This document shows positions 463-19,654 of a stretch of 21,980 nt of DNA, in pieces; position 1 is the stretch's first letter, and each line of letters begins with the position of its first letter. The stretch is from Hyphomicrobiales bacterium. Its GTDB lineage: Bacteria > Pseudomonadota > Alphaproteobacteria > Rhizobiales > HXMU1428-3. Both the position numbers and the translations under genes were made by a program. The notes under the pieces are model-generated. The model searched no databases, was not told where the DNA came from, and worked only from the letters and a program-made list of their open reading frames with translations. Location of the stretch: the NCBI GenBank assembly GCA_021775385.1, contig JAJFHW010000042.1, positions 1-21,980 on the forward strand, in the 5' to 3' direction.

Positions 463-844
463 ATGCAAAATTCCTTAAAATATAAAATAAACCAGAAACT
501 ACAATCCAGTGGGGTATCACCTAGAGTTCCAGCTAAAACAAGCTTTGATCAGATCTCAAAATTCCAAAAGTCTGAACCAAAGATCTCCTTTACATACTAT
601 ATGAAAAGGCATGCAGACACAGTCTAATATCATCCGTCTAATCTTATTTGAGCTCAAGAACTGATCTTTATATTCTAACAGCCCAACGCAATCAACCAAT
701 CTGTGAATACCAATTGAATACAAACACAAGACAAAGCTCTGTAATAAACATGGTAAATAAGATAAATACAATTAAACGTCGTTCAATTAAGTCTATGAAA
801 CTACTAATAGTCTTGATGAGAAATCCCATACTCAAGAAACAGTA

Positions 845-860
845 TGTTTCACGTGAATCA
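845..860. promoter_or_regulatory. parS: parS site, one mismatch
   Basis: TGTTTCACGTGAATCA differs from the ParB consensus TGTTTCACGTGAAACA only at position 14 (A to T). The change creates GAATC at 855-859, a CcrM (GANTC) site. The identity with the sites at 959 and 1203 extends two bases further, to an 18-mer ending in ATT. Confidence 0.85.
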
Positions 861-958
861 TTATTTGAAAAAAAACTGATGTTAGAAACGAACAGATCCT
901 AGGTTCTTTGCCAGGGATACGGTAGTAGACATAATTAATCTCAAAATAATACCTCAAC

Positions 959-974
959 TGTTTCACGTGAATCA
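959..974. promoter_or_regulatory. parS: parS site, one mismatch
   Basis: TGTTTCACGTGAATCA, the same variant as at 845, with GAATC at 969-973. It lies 114 bases from the first copy. Confidence 0.85.
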
Positions 975-1202
975 TTTCACAACATGAAGTGAGGATTAAG
1001 AGGGATTACTCAATTAGTGTTCTTCTCATGTGGTTTTCGAATTTTAACTTTTACCGCTGCCTCTTCAGTCACCCATGTCCAGTCATTTATCTAATTAACG
1101 TAAGTGTTCTTTTTATCCTTAGATAATACAAAATGGGTTAGCTGACCTTTCTGTAACATTAATAGACGGTCTTGCGATTTTCATAGTGTATAAAGGTCAT
1201 CT

Positions 1203-1218
1203 TGTTTCACGTGAATCA
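1203..1218. promoter_or_regulatory. parS: parS site, one mismatch
   Basis: TGTTTCACGTGAATCA, the third identical copy of the variant, with GAATC at 1213-1217. Flanking sequence beyond the shared 18-mer is unrelated to the other two copies, so this is not a simple recent tandem duplication. Confidence 0.85.
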
Positions 1219-1464
1219 TTTCTAGAAGTCTTAGTTGTTGAGTTTTAAAATGGATGATGTTTAAAGAAATCAGGTTCAGTTGTAGCCCGAAAAGCTATGC
1301 AGTATTTTGATTTGCTATATCGTTAAGAAACTCATTTTGATGGATCAAAATATCGACTGGTTAATTACCATTCTTGAATTCTTTTAAGCATCAGTGCAAA
1401 ACTAATTTAACTCATCTCTGGAAGGTCGAATGGAAAATAATCTGTGAGCTTATCTCCTGTTTTT

Positions 1465-1480
1465 TGTTTCACGTGAAACG
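1465..1480. promoter_or_regulatory. parS: parS site, one mismatch
   Basis: TGTTTCACGTGAAACG has the full inner 14-bp palindrome and only a final A to G change. No GANTC site overlaps it. Confidence 0.88.
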
Positions 1481-1555
1481 AATGAAATGAGCTAATTCTC
1501 ATAGAATACACAAGACGGCCCCATTAGGGATGCTGATGAGCTGTTAGATCGCTTG

Positions 1556-1570
1556 TTAACCATTTGTTAA
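1556..1570. promoter_or_regulatory. CtrA-like binding box
   Basis: TTAACCATTTGTTAA fits the CtrA consensus TTAA-N7-TTAA exactly, and its first half also matches the extended half-site TTAACCAT. It lies between two parS sites and about 1.1 kb upstream of mnmG. In such AT-rich DNA a chance match somewhere in the intergenic sequence is quite possible, so confidence is modest. Confidence 0.35.
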
Positions 1571-1662
1571 TATTTAAGACCTGAAATTGAACCTCCCCAC
1601 AATAGTCTACAGCCAATAAAATGGGACAAATTTTATAATGAAATTCAGAGATACTTGATGTC

Positions 1663-1678
1663 AATTCCACGTGAAAAA
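1663..1678. promoter_or_regulatory. Degenerate parS-like site
   Basis: The sequence keeps the CACGTG core and the inner GTGAAA side but has four mismatches to the 16-mer parS consensus (positions 1, 2, 5 and 15). It could be a decayed site with weak or no ParB affinity. Confidence 0.3.
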
Positions 1679-1788
1679 ATGAGTTGATCATCTAATTTTT
1701 AAAACTTACCCCCTCAAACCCCATAAATCCGATTTAGATTTTTCCAAAAAATGCCCGCGGAAAAATGGAATCTTTCTTCCAAAAAATG

Positions 1789-1851
1789 GGGAGGGAGTCA
1801 TAAAAAGTGGGGAGGGAATCTGTTTTGCTAGGGAGGGAGTCAATTTTGTTA
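1789..1851 (+). repeat. Three tandem 21-bp iterons with core GGGAGGGA(G/A)TC
   Basis: Units begin at 1789, 1810 and 1831, exactly 21 bases apart (two helical turns). Each opens with GGGAGGGAGTC or GGGAGGGAATC. The 10-base tails of units 2 and 3 agree at seven positions; the tail of unit 1 differs. Every core ends in a GANTC site (1795, 1816, 1837). A shortened inverted copy, GATTCCTCCCC, lies at 1867-1877, and the perfect parS follows at 1893. No binding protein is known to me for this motif. Equal spacing on one helical face suggests a bound protein, but that is inference. Confidence 0.7.
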
Positions 1852-1892
1852 AAAATTTGGCGAAAAGATTCCTCCCCACCACAAATTTTTCA

Positions 1893-1908
1893 TGTTTCAC
1901 GTGAAACA
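1893..1908. promoter_or_regulatory. parS: parS site, perfect consensus
   Basis: TGTTTCACGTGAAACA, an exact match to the 16-bp palindrome bound by ParB across most bacterial phyla. It is the only perfect copy here and lies 80 bases beyond the mnmE stop codon. Confidence 0.93.
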
Positions 1909-1987
1909 TTCATCAAGCTGACTCAATTCAATTTACCATCAGCGACCATAGAAATTCTGTGGCATTTAAGACTCACCACCTGCCATC

Positions 1988-3322
1988 CTATTTACCAATA
2001 CAAAATTCAACAAAGATTTTATCAAGTACATCTTCAACATCAACCTTACCTACAAGACGACCTAATGAAAATGCCGCCTGCCTAAGATCTTCAGCACGAA
2101 GCTCTGTATCAGAGAGATCCCCTTCAACAAAATTTCCAAGTTCAACTGAACATTTTTTTAATAGTTCACGGTGCCGTTCACGGGTTATAACCACTGTCTC
2201 ACCCTGCCCCACTCTCTCTTTTACAACCTTAGAAATCCGTGATGCTAAATCATCTAAACCGGCTCCTTCTTGAGCAGAAATTTGAACATCCACTAACTCA
2301 GATTTTATATCTGGGAGAAGAGCTAAATCGCACTTATTCCAAACTCTCAAAACAGGAATTTCTTCATTAAAATTTTCATCAGTTAATTCAAACTGAGGCT
2401 CCGTTCCATCAATCAGAAACAAAATTAATTCAGCCCTATCAGCTTGCTCAAAACTGCGGCGAATACCTTCAAGTTCAACCTTGCTTTTGGTCTCACGAAT
2501 TCCAGCTGTGTCAGTTACAATGACGGGCAAACCATCAATGTCCATTCGCACTTCAATCACATCACGAGTGGTCCCTGCCTCATCAGACACAATGGCAACA
2601 TCACGTTTGGCTAGTGCATTTAATAAACGAGATTTCCCTGCATTGGGCGGTCCAACAATAACAACACGAAATCCATCTCGAACAATTTCACCACGCGAAC
2701 CATCATTCAAAAAATGATCAATCTTGGTTTGTAGGGCTAGAACAGTAGGAAGTGCCTCACCAGCAATATCTTCTGGAACGTCAGCTTCATCAGAAAAATC
2801 AAGAGCTGACTCAACAAGTGCAATCGCGTAGATCAAATCTGAGCGCCAGCCTTCATAAAGTTTAGAAGTTTCACCACCAAGTTGGGTTAACGCTTGAGAC
2901 TTTTGCCCCAAAGTATCAGCAGCAATTAAATCCGCTAAACCTTCCACCTCAATTAAATCGAGCTTTCCATTCTCAAACCCACGCCGAGAAAACTCACCTC
3001 GTTCAGCCATACGACAATTTTGAAATGTACTAAGCTTAGCTAAAACCGAAATGATAACAGCTCGGCCACCATGAATATGAAATTCAACAACATCCTCACC
3101 AGTAAAACTACGCGGCCCTTCAAAATAAAGAACTAAAGCCTCATCGAGAATTGAATTATCTACAGGATCAACCAACCTAGTAAGATGCGCAAAACGATCC
3201 TTAGGGATTTTCCCGCAAAGAGAAGTTGTAATCTGTGGCACCTCAGGTCCAGAAACGCGAATTACAGCAACCCCAGTTGGCCCAGCGCCGCTTGATAATG
3301 CATAAATCGTTTCCAAACTCAT
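1988..3322 (-). CDS. mnmE: MnmE (TrmE/ThdF) tRNA modification GTPase
   Basis: MnmE is the potassium-activated GTPase partner of MnmG in U34 tRNA modification in the cytoplasm. The 444-residue product has the usual length and domain order: an N-terminal folate-binding/dimerisation domain (about 1-115), a helical domain, an inserted G domain, and the C-terminal CIGK ending that carries the catalytic cysteine. G-domain motifs are clear: GPPNAGKS (G1), EAGTTRD (G2), DTAG (G3) and NKCD (G4). An in-frame GTG lies nine bases upstream at 3331, but ATG at 3322 has AGGTGG at good distance and gives the normal N-terminus MSLETIYALSSG. It is separated from rho by thirteen genes, whereas the two are neighbours in many alphaproteobacteria. 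Confidence 0.97.
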   Translation of the reverse strand: MSLETIYALSSGAGPTGVAVIRVSGPEVPQITTSLCGKIPKDRFAHLTRLVDPVDNSILDEALVLYFEGPRSFTGEDVVEFHIHGGRAVIISVLAKLSTFQNCRMAERGEFSRRGFENGKLDLIEVEGLADLIAADTLGQKSQALTQLGGETSKLYEGWRSDLIYAIALVESALDFSDEADVPEDIAGEALPTVLALQTKIDHFLNDGSRGEIVRDGFRVVIVGPPNAGKSRLLNALAKRDVAIVSDEAGTTRDVIEVRMDIDGLPVIVTDTAGIRETKSKVELEGIRRSFEQADRAELILFLIDGTEPQFELTDENFNEEIPVLRVWNKCDLALLPDIKSELVDVQISAQEGAGLDDLASRISKVVKERVGQGETVVITRERHRELLKKCSVELGNFVEGDLSDTELRAEDLRQAAFSLGRLVGKVDVEDVLDKIFVEFCIGK

Positions 3323-3491
3323 TCCACCCACCTAATAAGACAAAAAACACAAAATCAAACCACGAAAGTCTAATTTAAAATCATTCTAAAGTAGACTAGT
3401 CTCCCTCATAATGATCTTTCATTTCACATAGAAGCTATCTAGTACTATACAGAAATTATAAACTTGCCCTTAACTAAAGGTTTCATCACCC

Positions 3492-5555
3492 ATGTCACTG
3501 CCCGCAACACCAGCTCTGAACCAACTCGCACAAGAAACCAGTCCTTATCTCCTGGCACATAAAGATAACCCGGTTCATTGGTGGCCCTGGGGTGAAGAAG
3601 CCTTAGAAATAGCAAAAAAAAGCAATAAACCAATTATGATATCAATTGGCTATGCTGCCTGCCATTGGTGCCATGTTATGGCAGATGAAAGTTTTGCAGA
3701 CATCGATACAGCTGAACTGATGAACGAAAAATTCATCAATATTAAAGTTGATAGAGAAGAACGCCCTGATATCGATCATATTTACATGAGCGCACTATCA
3801 GAGCTTGGTGAACAAACCGGCTGGCCCCTCACTATGTTTCTTACACCAGAAGGAAAACCATATTGGGGAGGAACATATTTTCCTAAAATCCAAGGAGATG
3901 GTCGCCCTTCTTTCAAACAAGCTTTAGAATTCGCTGAAACCATTTTTGTGAAGGATAAAGAGGCCGTAGAGCAGAATTCAGAAAGCCTGACACAACTCAT
4001 TGCAGCAGAGCGTCCTAAAATGATGGGGCCAGATATCTCTGATGACATCCTACTAAACATGAATCAACGCCTTGGTGATATGATGGATGGCAAACATGGT
4101 GGATTAAGAGGCGCGCCCAAATTTCCTCAATATCCAATCTTTAATTTACTATGGCGGATTGGCCAAAGGTTCAATCAAGATAGAGCAAAAACTGCAGTTG
4201 AAGCCTTACTAGGATCAGTATTCCAAGGTGGCATCTACGATCATTTAGGTGGTGGTCTTGCCCGCTACGCAACAGACGAGAAATGGCTTGTTCCTCATTT
4301 TGAAAAGATGTTGTCCGATAATGCCTTAATGCTCGAACTAGCCATCAATGTATATAAAGAAAAAAAATCACCACTACTAAAACAAAGAATAGAAGAAATC
4401 ATAAACTGGTTGAAACGTGACATGCTCACAAGTGAAGGTGCTTTTGCCACGTCACAAGATGCAGATAGCGAAGACGAAAAAGGTGAATTCAGCGAGGGCA
4501 AATTTTATGTTTGGACAACAGATGAAATCAAAGAACTCCTAAAAGATAATTTCGACTTTTTTGCAAAACACTACGATGTTACCGAAGCAGGAAATTGGCA
4601 AAATGTAACCATTCTCAATCGGCTTAAATCCTTTCATTGGTTATCAGATGAAGATGAAGCTAGACTGACAAAATCCAGAAACATTTTATTGTCCGCCCGC
4701 AATCAAAGAGTAAAACCAAACTTAGATGATAAGATCTTAGCCGACTGGAACGGCATGGTAATCACATCGCTAACCCTGGCCTCAGACACATTCAACAACC
4801 CTGAATGGAGAGATCTTGCAATCAAAGCATATAGTTTCATTAAAAACACAATGGATACAGAAGAAGGCCTTCATCACTCTTATCGCTTAGGTAAATGCTC
4901 AAGCCCCGCCATTTACAATGACTATGCGCAAATGACCAGAGCAGCTCTGAGCCTTTATAATTCAACAGGCAATAAAGAATACATTAATGATGCCACAAGA
5001 TGGACAAACGCACTAAACGAAAATTTTTGGTGTGAAGAATTTGGCGGCTATTTTATCACCGGTAAAAATAGAAACGATGTCATCATTCGTGGTAAAACAG
5101 GTGCTGATGAAGCAACACCAAATGGCAATGCTGTCATGATTTCAAATTTGATGGCCCTATATCTTCTAACAGGCGAGGAAGAATACAAAGAAAAAGCCAA
5201 AAAAATCGCTCAATGCTTCGGCAACGCAATCGCAAAAAATATCTTCGCTCATGTTGGTCTCTTAGCTGGCTCAATTGATATAATCGCAGCAATACATATA
5301 GTTATTATCAAAACAGAAAAAGAAGACAAAGTTGCAAATGAAATGATTGAGATGATCAAACAAGCTCCAGTTTCAGGCCTTGTTATACAGGCCATTGAAC
5401 AGGCTGAGGTCCTCCCAAAAAATACACCTATAAAAGACAAAAAATTATCCGGCGATAAAACAACAGCCTATATTTGTGTTGGCCAAACATGCCTAGAACC
5501 TGTCACAAATGTAAAAGACCTAATAAGCAATTTAAATAAAGCCAAGGAAGCATAA
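3492..5555 (+). CDS. DUF255 thioredoxin-fold / six-hairpin glycosidase-like protein (YyaL / SPATA20 family)
   Basis: A 687-residue protein of the widespread YyaL/SPATA20 family; bacterial members are usually near this length. The N-terminal thioredoxin-like domain (about 8-170) is diagnostic: [14 protein letters not shown] at 17-30, the CxxC motif ACHWCH with Cys57 and Cys60, and [11 protein letters not shown]. The rest resembles the alpha/alpha six-hairpin barrel of N-acylglucosamine 2-epimerases and glycosidases, with the conserved [29 protein letters not shown] region (quoted in part: [17 protein letters not shown]) and the [11 protein letters not shown] motif. No signal peptide, so probably cytoplasmic. 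The biochemical function of the family is not settled. AAAGG lies about eleven bases before the ATG. It is the first gene of the block between mnmE and rho, transcribed toward the origin, and convergent with the tautomerase gene. Confidence 0.93.
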
Positions 5556-6153: not shown

Positions 6154-7032
6154 ATGGCTGTGAATTTAGATATGGATTGCCTACGCACATTCATAACAAT
6201 TAATAATCTTGGAAGTTTTTCTGATGCAGCCGACCATCTTCACCGAACAGCTCCGGCCATTAGTTTACAAATCAAACGGTTAGAAGACCAGCTCGGCACA
6301 AAGCTCTTCCAAAAATCAGGTCGTAAAATGATCTTAAGTACAGCAGGAGAAAACCTGCTACATAAAGCCCAGAAAATCCTCGATATAAATGATGAGATTG
6401 TATTACGCTTATCAATAAAACCTTTAAAAGGTAAAATAGCCCTAGGTGTAATTCAAGATTATGCTGATACTTTCTTGCCCATGATTTTAAATAAATTTAA
6501 ATCAACACACCCAGATGTCCACATAACAGTAATCGTTGACAGTACAAAAAATTTAACAGCTCAAATCAAAAAAGGTACACTAGATCTTGCAATTGCGATT
6601 GATGATAAATCAAATTTAAAAAAAGAAAAAATAAAGCAAGAAAAAATGGTTTGGCTCTCCAAGCCATCTCTAGAAATCAACCCGAAAGTGCCTCTACCTC
6701 TTGTTCTTCTAGATGCACCCTGTACATTTAGAGAAAAAGCAATTGAAGCATTAAATAATCAAGAGAGAAGCTGGGAAATCGTTTTCACAAGCCCAAGTCT
6801 TTCAGGTCTTTATGCTGCTATCGACGCCGGTCTCGGCATTACAGCCCGAACGAAACTCTCATGTAATAAAGAAATTGAGCAATCCATCAAAGCTCTAAAG
6901 TTACCTAAACTCCCCACGGTTAATTTCGTTATTTATGAAAAAAAGAAACAGAGTGAAAGCTCAGTAATGTTTAAAACAATCATTCAAAACGAAAGCATAA
7001 AAATGTATAGACAAAGTATAGATAAATGCTAG
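6154..7032 (+). CDS. LysR-family transcriptional regulator
   Basis: A 292-residue LysR regulator of normal length. The winged helix-turn-helix (about residues 8-67) is typical: LRTFITINNLGSFSDAADHL, HRTAPAISLQIKRLEDQLG, LFQKSGRKMILSTAGE. The remainder (about 90-280) is the periplasmic-binding-protein-like effector domain, beginning GKIALGVIQDYADTFLPMIL. Members act as tetramers that bend DNA and respond to a small ligand, which cannot be predicted here. No good ribosome binding site precedes ATG 6154; an in-frame ATG at 6172 is possible but would trim only six residues. It is divergent from the tautomerase gene, so that gene is the first candidate target. Confidence 0.93.
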   Translation: MAVNLDMDCLRTFITINNLGSFSDAADHLHRTAPAISLQIKRLEDQLGTKLFQKSGRKMILSTAGENLLHKAQKILDINDEIVLRLSIKPLKGKIALGVIQDYADTFLPMILNKFKSTHPDVHITVIVDSTKNLTAQIKKGTLDLAIAIDDKSNLKKEKIKQEKMVWLSKPSLEINPKVPLPLVLLDAPCTFREKAIEALNNQERSWEIVFTSPSLSGLYAAIDAGLGITARTKLSCNKEIEQSIKALKLPKLPTVNFVIYEKKKQSESSVMFKTIIQNESIKMYRQSIDKC

Positions 7033-7108
7033 CCTTGCCATAAAGTATTCATAACCTTATTGTACAAACTCTAATTTTATAAATGGATTTAGAAAAACCA
7101 AGACCCTA

Positions 7109-19191: not shown

Positions 19192-19586
19192 CACAATCTT
19201 ATCATTTCACAAGTCTTCTTATCCGATGAGCTGAGCGACTTTTCAATATAAAAATAAAAGAATCTTTTTTTAAAATTGTAGTAGTTATTGTTATGCGGTG
19301 GATTGTGAATATTAAAATTAATTGAATTCTTTTTAACAAATTATCCAAATCATAAAATTTTTAAAAATCAAATTCCCAGCTAAAAAATTAAAACAAAACT
19401 CTAAAAAGAAAATAGCTCAATGGATTCAATATAATTAGATCACAAAATAAAAGTGAATGATATGTGGCAAATAATGTGCAAAACTATGGGTATAAATTCT
19501 TTACAAAACTGACTAATCACAAAAGGTGTATAACTCTACAGATTTTAATTCACAGCCGAAACTTTGTGAGTAACTTTTTGGATTAT

Positions 19587-19595
19587 TGTGAATAA
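19587..19595 (-). promoter_or_regulatory. Perfect DnaA box
   Basis: TGTGAATAA, the reverse complement of TTATTCACA, fully matches the DnaA-box consensus TTATNCACA. It is the only perfect box in the origin candidate and lies 60 bases before the kinase start codon. Confidence 0.8.
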
Positions 19596-19644
19596 TCTGG
19601 GAATAAAATAAACACCCCCAATCAGTGTGGGGATAACTTAAGAC

Positions 19645-19653
19645 TTATCAACA
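19645..19653 (+). promoter_or_regulatory. DnaA box-like site abutting a start codon
   Basis: TTATCAACA has one mismatch to TTATNCACA and ends one base before ATG 19655. DnaA bound here would cover the translation start region of the kinase gene. Confidence 0.45.
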
Positions 19654-19654
19654 T

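Follow-up and report, generated by a model that had tools for sequence, protein, structure and literature searches.

How a bacterium senses that its centromere has been copied before moving it is an open question. In Alphaproteobacteria, methylation by CcrM serves as a natural clock, which the literature consulted links to promoters and to repABC origins. In Escherichia coli, clusters of GATC at oriC and gidA, hemimethylated behind the replication fork, are bound by SeqA; we know of no SeqA-like protein for GANTC.

Going by the sections of the literature consulted, the nearest published case to the locus described below is a cluster of GANTC near plasmid parS sites (PMC9040568). The 3parS locus of pAMI4, a repABC megaplasmid of Paracoccus aminophilus, is described there as long, AT-rich and non-coding, with several parS sites and a GANTC cluster, for which the authors speak of 'an unknown type of regulation'; the repABC operon of pAMI4 is preceded by a CtrA-like site. 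The ori2 module of Agrobacterium repABC has GANTC motifs and predicted parS (PMC11514494). In Vibrio cholerae, RctB binds 12-mers that each contain GATC and are spaced 10-11 bp apart, in a methylation-dependent manner, and the main chromosome has a conserved site, crtS, that contains five GATC (PMC6090056). In Caulobacter, MucR shields GANTC from CcrM, its targets being mostly promoters, and the GANTC sites of the parS locus are reported to show no significant change in methylation when CcrM or other methylases are overproduced (PMC5172544). GANTC in parS goes unmentioned in the consulted sections of two further papers (PMC3973325, PMC9239152), and in a literature search, largely of titles and abstracts, neither the iterons presented here nor a GANTC within a chromosomal parS came up.

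We describe an array of 21-bp iterons, rich in GANTC, beside the chromosomal parS of a bacterium whose order we take to be Rhizobiales. The observation is real, conserved and specific, and it gains weight from a pattern seen across the order.

The array and its surroundings

The window, by which we mean the whole stretch of DNA analysed, is a single contig of 21,980 bp (C337) from a 2.88-Mb, 79%-complete assembly. Its genes run in the order mnmG (minus strand, partial), gap, mnmE, and further on rho, hemJ, hemE, the pyruvate,phosphate dikinase regulator gene, maf and aroE, the identity of mnmG being taken from its N-terminal translation and position. Five parS sites with at most one mismatch lie in the mnmE-mnmG gap, about 17.5 kb from the likely oriC, which identifies the gap as a chromosomal centromere region; the array stands at the same distance of about 17.5 kb.

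Features of the mnmE-mnmG gap and of the likely oriC (window positions)
Feature	Position	Strand	Remarks
Iteron copy GGGAGGGAGTC	1789-1799	+	core TGGGGAGGGA from 1787; GANTC 1795
Iteron copy GGGAGGGAATC	1810-1820	+	core GTGGGGAGGGA from 1807; GANTC 1816
Iteron copy GGGAGGGAGTC	1831-1841	+	GANTC 1837; TA in place of TG before it
Inverted copy GTGGGGAGGAATC	1867-1879	-	one G shorter
Lone extra core copy GTGGGGAGG	1592-1600	-	near CtrA-like box
GANTC in GGAAAAATGGAATCTTTCTTCC	1768-1772	+	adjoins array
GANTC	1920-1924	+	11 bp past parS
Perfect parS TGTTTCACGTGAAACA	1893-1908	.
parS TGTTTCACGTGAAACG	1465-1480	.	one mismatch, without GANTC
parS variant TGTTTCACGTGAATCA	1203-1218	.	built-in GANTC at 1213
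parS variant	959-974	.	built-in GANTC at 969
parS variant	845-860	.	built-in GANTC at 855
Conserved block of about 152 bp	1757-1908	.	parS, inverted copy, three direct copies and GGAAAAATGGAATCTTTCTTCC
mnmE	1988-3331	minus
mnmG	start about 468	minus
mnmE-mnmG gap, chromosomal centromere region	469-1987	.	non-coding, 1.52 kb
Likely oriC, gap between hemE and pyruvate,phosphate dikinase regulator	19195-19654	.	DnaA-like boxes and GC skew; outside array

The gap beside hemE is likely the oriC of the chromosome. It holds four of the six DnaA-like boxes of the window (at most one mismatch), and the GC skew there goes from negative to about zero, being still negative throughout the mnmE-mnmG gap. 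In G002, a genome of the same genus, the skew becomes weaker at the corresponding distance (about 340 kb). Another, G004, whose mnmE is at 117 kb, shows just a step near 110 kb within positive skew, and thus does not decide the placement. An oriC in the mnmE-mnmG gap was rejected: positions 469-1987 contain no DnaA-like box within one mismatch, and both the boxes and the change of skew are at hemE (window, G002). The likely oriC itself includes two GANTC sites.

Three GGGAGGGA(G/A)TC units at 21-bp steps and an inverted copy adjoin the perfect parS. The earlier note on this DNA had placed the units at 1789, 1810 and 1831 with an exact 21-bp period, which is right to the base, and the shortened inverted copy that it gave at 1867-1877 is confirmed by direct reading: the sequence there is GATTCCTCCCC, one base shorter. 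The 11-mer occurs three times in the whole assembly, each time in the array. A TTAA-N7-TTAA at 1556-1570, a CtrA-like box, adjoins the lone core copy; both are retained in G002, G003 and G006, where the place matching the lone copy carries the fuller GGGGAGGGA.

GANTC sites at 1768, 1795, 1816, 1837, 1867 and 1920 put six in 157 bp (1768-1924), with a seventh at 1970, in a window depleted of them (26 in all, against 70.7 +/- 7.2 expected from shuffles). The excess over base composition claimed earlier is borne out: the Poisson probability of at least six per 157 bp, uncorrected for place, is 1.5e-5 at the composition rate and 3e-8 at the intergenic rate of 1.08/kb. That rate comes from 179 kb of the same genome, in which GANTC stands at 0.72/kb with the array and 0.69/kb without it (intergenic, 1.29/kb and 1.08/kb). 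Whether other intergenic DNA of this genome is equally dense has a divided answer. No other cluster in the sample exceeds four GANTC per 157 bp, but the whole 1.48-kb gap (9 GANTC, 6.1/kb) is surpassed by three short intergenic runs of at least 200 bp (3 in 283 bp, 3 in 311 bp and 2 in 214 bp). The second-densest cluster, with its four sites, is at L349 (G000:C350), 6882-7038. In 392 kb of G002 the array locus is again the densest place (six GANTC, elsewhere at most three), and 400 kb of G004 contain no cluster above three; the sampled rate is 0.69/kb in both.

Conservation of the array and GANTC near parS in other genomes

Eight genomes of the genus were sampled, of which six have mnmE and the flank bearing the array. 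The other two, G001 and G005, are assemblies without mnmE above paralogue level, and neither has two exact KGGGGAGGGA copies on one contig. At L333 (G005), a parS pair is repeated 1.89 kb apart (2347-2454 and 4238-4346), which is a duplication or an assembly fault. A search of the gap in relatives for the core and its 21-bp spacing, as the earlier note had proposed, found both in 6/6 genomes with the flank, together with the inverted copy and parS (with two mismatches in G004). Absence of the array from close relatives that keep parS was looked for and is not seen. Between the inverted copy and the far end of the array, both included, the alignment is free of gaps. The block is 92-93% identical to that of the window in G002 and G003, 82% in G006, 68% in G007 and 64% in G004; the DNA on either side is 37-62% identical.

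Unbroken runs of columns invariant across the six genomes, 11 in the copy at 1789-1799 and 10 in that at 1810-1820, correspond to the core TGGGGAGGGA. In G004 and G007, degeneration has gone furthest in the counterpart of the third direct copy, and the inverted copy of these two genomes is a full GGGGAGGGA without GANTC. A GANTC in each copy, as described earlier, is true of every copy in the window but of 18/24 in the genus (5/6, 5/6 and 4/6 among direct copies, 4/6 among inverted ones). The copy at 1789-1799 has lost it in G006, where one copy is without GANTC, and in G004, which keeps the core at its 21-bp step with GANTC in 0/4 copies; G004 has one GANTC between copies and one in the adjacent parS, TGTTTCACGTGAGTCA. 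CcrM, with a DPPY motif and a RAMA domain, is present in the genome of the window, and G004 has it as a 369-aa DPPY methylase with a RAMA domain. These losses in G004 and G006 despite a kept core point to the core as the selected part. The alignment thus indicates that the array is under selection and that the G-rich core TGGGGAGGGA, not GANTC, is its invariant part, which GANTC usually, though not always, accompanies. Among known G-rich repeats, MraZ boxes are repeats of GTGGG.

The core belongs to this locus and, among the gaps covered, to this genus. Sought as a pattern without GANTC, TGGGGAGGGA is found in the mnmE-mnmG gap of 6/6 genus genomes and in 0/44 order, 0/88 class and 0/80 named loci, that is, in none of 212 loci outside the genus (three of them repeated contigs); the shorter GGGGAGGG has one match among the 212, in L285. 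The order set comprised 53 genomes outside the genus, with gaps fetched for 44, and the class set 128 non-order genomes with MnmE, with 88 gaps used (L188 has no readable mnmE end). By their titles, 34 of the 80 named loci are Rhizobiales and 21 belong to other orders; the remaining 25 were excluded from that division (the 3 repeated contigs and 22 with vague titles). Outside the gap, the eight genus genomes contain 50 KGGGGAGGGA sites, against 44 for the reversed control. With the motif near control level elsewhere, the array is specific to the mnmE-mnmG locus, and we rejected a dispersed regulon for the core.

GANTC itself is concentrated at this place well beyond the genus. Over the first 400 bp after mnmE, with gaps lacking parS or shorter than 40 bp excluded, its density in the genus reaches 17.9/kb (43 in 2400 bp, against 11.3 +/- 3.1 in shuffles). 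For the order outside the genus, 33 gaps give 11.4/kb (62 in 5445 bp, against 27.2 +/- 5.0, the largest of 200 shuffles being 41), and for the class outside the order, 38 gaps give 3.4/kb (18 in 5269 bp, against 20.0 +/- 3.7); mnmE coding DNA has 0.8-1.7/kb. In a second count, made on gaps that have parS, we took GANTC sites up to 150 bp from a parS and disregarded those inside it. The genus has 42 in 5125 bp (shuffles 21.7 +/- 4.2; 0/300 as high), 34 order loci have 49 in 4222 bp (23.1 +/- 4.3; 0/300) and 28 named Rhizobiales loci have 22 in 2666 bp (12.0 +/- 3.2; 1/300). There is no enrichment in 42 class loci outside the order (18 in 3838 bp; 14.1 +/- 3.6; 49/300) or in 15 named non-Rhizobiales loci (216/300 shuffles as high). 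About half of the Rhizobiales loci, 34/62, have no GANTC near parS outside it (17/34 order and 17/28 named). At the order level the comparators are shuffles and mnmE coding DNA, the comparison with all intergenic DNA being confined to the genus.

The clusters in the order differ in sequence between families; G016 has 13 GANTC in 237 bp, G045 has 8 in 358 bp and G032 has 7 in 239 bp, and the core is absent from them. At L042 (G016), a 32-bp unit with three GANTC stands twice in tandem after the mnmE stop. In four families (L042, L047, L048 and L135; G025, G032, G045 and G016), TGAYTC-N4-GAYTC-GATG-parS runs from the mnmE stop and is followed by GATTCCT units, a comparison that drew on 36 named loci. 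At L040 (G015), parS is centred in a palindrome of about 36 bp, 20 bp past the mnmE stop.

GANTC is also built into parS, as in three sites of the window (845, 959 and 1203). A T3A change suffices to convert parS to a GANTC-bearing form. In counts that all demand a perfect other half of parS, the genome tally finds TGATTCACGTGAAACA in 123/297 order genomes and 52/117 genera. C or G at position 3 is found in 14/297 genomes and 7/117 genera; outside the order, T3A occurs in 5/285 class genomes and T3C in 1. Of 21 sites with C at position 4, 20 are TGACTC, which keeps GANTC, and one is TGTCTC; the 20 come from 15 genomes, 6 genera and 4 families, and these counts are not phylogenetically independent. 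The double change is thus 20 times commoner than the single one, which argues that GANTC itself is favoured in parS or that ParB reads positions 3 and 4 jointly. A purine (A or G) at position 4 was found in 0/297 order genomes, so a preference of ParB probably shapes the parS variants as well. In some loci (L265, L268, L271, L280, L287, L290, L298, L299, L307 and L319), mostly of Rhizobium, Mesorhizobium, Hoeflea and Shinella, the TGA that ends mnmE is also the start of a GANTC-bearing parS.

What the element may be

In our best explanation, the block would act in cis, as a DNA site belonging to the chromosomal centromere. It has four copies of the core TGGGGAGGGA, of which one is inverted and the other three, two helical turns (21 bp) apart, share a face of the helix; all would be bound cooperatively by a candidate sequence-specific protein, which may form a single nucleoprotein complex with ParB on parS. 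The copies carry CcrM sites as well in the majority of genus members, where access of the methylase and binding of the protein would compete or be mutually dependent. The hemimethylated state behind the fork would then signal to the complex that the centromere had been copied, and passage of the fork would change the state of the complex, or of ParB, until CcrM acted late in the cycle. We infer the binding protein, its cooperative binding and the effect of methylation, and the parts differ in strength. That the block is a conserved protein-DNA site is highly probable from its alignment. The exact two-turn spacing, with diverged spacers, is best explained by a protein that contacts a single helical face. 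That methylation is part of how the site works seems possible, with the balance tilted slightly against it. The explanation as a whole, a phased array in a centromere complex coupled to methylation, we hold to be evenly poised.

The main result against the methylation part is, on this alignment, the loss of GANTC in G004, and by analogy the constancy reported for the Caulobacter parS locus would also count against it (PMC5172544). A rival account, doubtful yet a serious contender, is that the array is the conserved site of a candidate protein and methylation is irrelevant, GANTC arising from the (A/G)TC that usually follows the core and its loss being neutral. The invariant core and the loss of GANTC from all four copies of G004 and one of G006, both with CcrM, speak for this account; it sits less well with six GANTC crowded into the array of a genome that avoids them (0.69/kb), and with the unrelated clusters that other families (G016, G045, G032) have in this position without the core. 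GANTC might instead regulate mnmG and the genes downstream through CcrM and GcrA, lying near parS merely because both precede mnmG; in many relatives the genes after mnmG are presumably rsmG-parA-parB. Since the gap is under 300 bp in 39/44 order loci, parS, GANTC and any mnmG promoter are indistinguishable there, and GcrA is described as a methylation-sensitive regulator acting with CcrM (PMC11514494). We nevertheless regard this as unlikely, because the gap measures 1.3-2.2 kb in the five genus genomes that have both of its ends, and the cluster, if there is one, is on the mnmE side. In the window, the 386 bp next to the mnmG start are free of GANTC, and the first three sites beyond them are all inside parS.

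The GANTC-bearing parS might in turn reflect tolerance by ParB of A at position 3, or the use of the parS TGA as the mnmE stop, with no role for methylation. CcrM occurs in other alphaproteobacterial orders too, so the rarity of T3A outside the order (5/285) suggests that CcrM alone may not drive it, and 11 GANTC half-sites do begin with the stop codon of mnmE (0 genus, 2 order, 9 named). Most, 43, are away from the stop (14 genus, 9 order, 20 named); additive tolerance does not predict that A/C at positions 3-4 should be so much commoner than T/C, and GANTC is enriched outside parS as well. We consider this account, too, somewhat improbable but worth keeping in view. Very unlikely is a transcribed RNA element, that is, a hairpin, terminator or small RNA with repeated CUCCCUCCCC motifs. 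The plus-strand fold of 1740-1885 beats shuffles (z -3.07; 2/200 as stable), owing to possible pairing between the inverted copy and a direct one, and there is one terminator-like hairpin on the minus strand, no excess over shuffles (0.9 expected). The minus-strand z is -0.28, however, and across the six genomes the covariation term is unfavourable (+3.2), with two-sided changes in 3/42 pairs and more breaks than compensations; single-stranded motifs, moreover, need no exact, indel-free 21-bp steps. No Rfam family comes near threshold for the block, and structured RNA was rejected. We likewise rejected, and give almost no credence to, a 21-bp step that is the seven-codon repeat of a small protein starting from parS (MFHVKH..., 67 aa, minus strand, 1706-1909). 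The window, G002, G003, G006 and G007 all keep this frame open, but the ratio of synonymous to non-synonymous changes is similar from frame to frame (59:222, 61:214 and 50:225), with no third-position bias. The start is ATG in 2/6 genomes and TTG in 4/6, the array of G004 is in a different frame, and a protein search found no homologue.

Of these readings, a phased protein-binding array in the centromere complex is the simplest and the best supported. A response of the complex, or of ParB, to methylation in most species would be next most likely; it draws on sequence statistics, on the biology of CcrM and on the precedents of the RctB 12-mers, MucR, the Agrobacterium ori2 module and the 3parS locus. 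The mechanism offered in the earlier note is accordingly half supported: the array is conserved, non-random, a DNA-level element, beside the centromere and in a genome with CcrM, but GANTC as the working part of the iterons is not supported by the genus, above all G004 with its CcrM. We infer that the array could mark replication of the centromere. GANTC beside and inside parS across the order makes a methylation-coupled centromere function plausible and, taken with the conserved array, suggests that the centromere may carry a mark of having been copied or not. A broader version seems rather unlikely to us: that the Rhizobiales centromere is methylation-readable, with CcrM sites in parS half-sites (TGA(T/C)TCAC) and beside parS, in this genus within phased iterons that have a binding protein of their own, and that ParB loading or a partner complex tells fully methylated, unreplicated centromeres from hemimethylated, newly replicated ones and so times segregation. 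If Rhizobiales do place CcrM sites in and beside parS, the link between replication and segregation could be tested by single-base changes in tractable species, and the 21-bp array points to a centromere-binding protein in the genus that is yet to be discovered.

Comparison with known systems

The SeqA-bound GATC clusters of E. coli resemble the array in having dense methylase sites next to mnmG (gidA); they are at the origin, whereas the array is at the centromere. The RctB iterons of V. cholerae ori2 are alike in their head-to-tail units of 11-12 bp, two-turn step and methylase motif (PMC6090056). The array has the regular two-turn head-to-tail step of this type (three units, 21 bp, 6/6 genomes). 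A methylase motif in every unit is true of the window but not of the whole genus (18/24; 0/4 in G004), and the array, some 17.5 kb away from the likely oriC, is located at a centromere and has mnmE and mnmG as neighbours, with no initiator gene beside it. RepC, the repABC initiator (PF03428), was found in 0/8 genus genomes at a cut-off that no control genome passed either. crtS, likewise a conserved site of the main chromosome with several methylase sites, differs in triggering a second chromosome (PMC6090056). The MucR system offers a parallel for a bound protein that keeps local GANTC from CcrM, but its targets are mostly promoters (PMC5172544). The 3parS locus is a plasmid centromere bound by RepB, its GANTC sites are about 500 bp from parS3, and the consulted sections mention neither iterons nor GANTC within parS; what it shares with the locus described here is a long, AT-rich, non-coding region in which several parS sites go together with a cluster of GANTC (PMC9040568).
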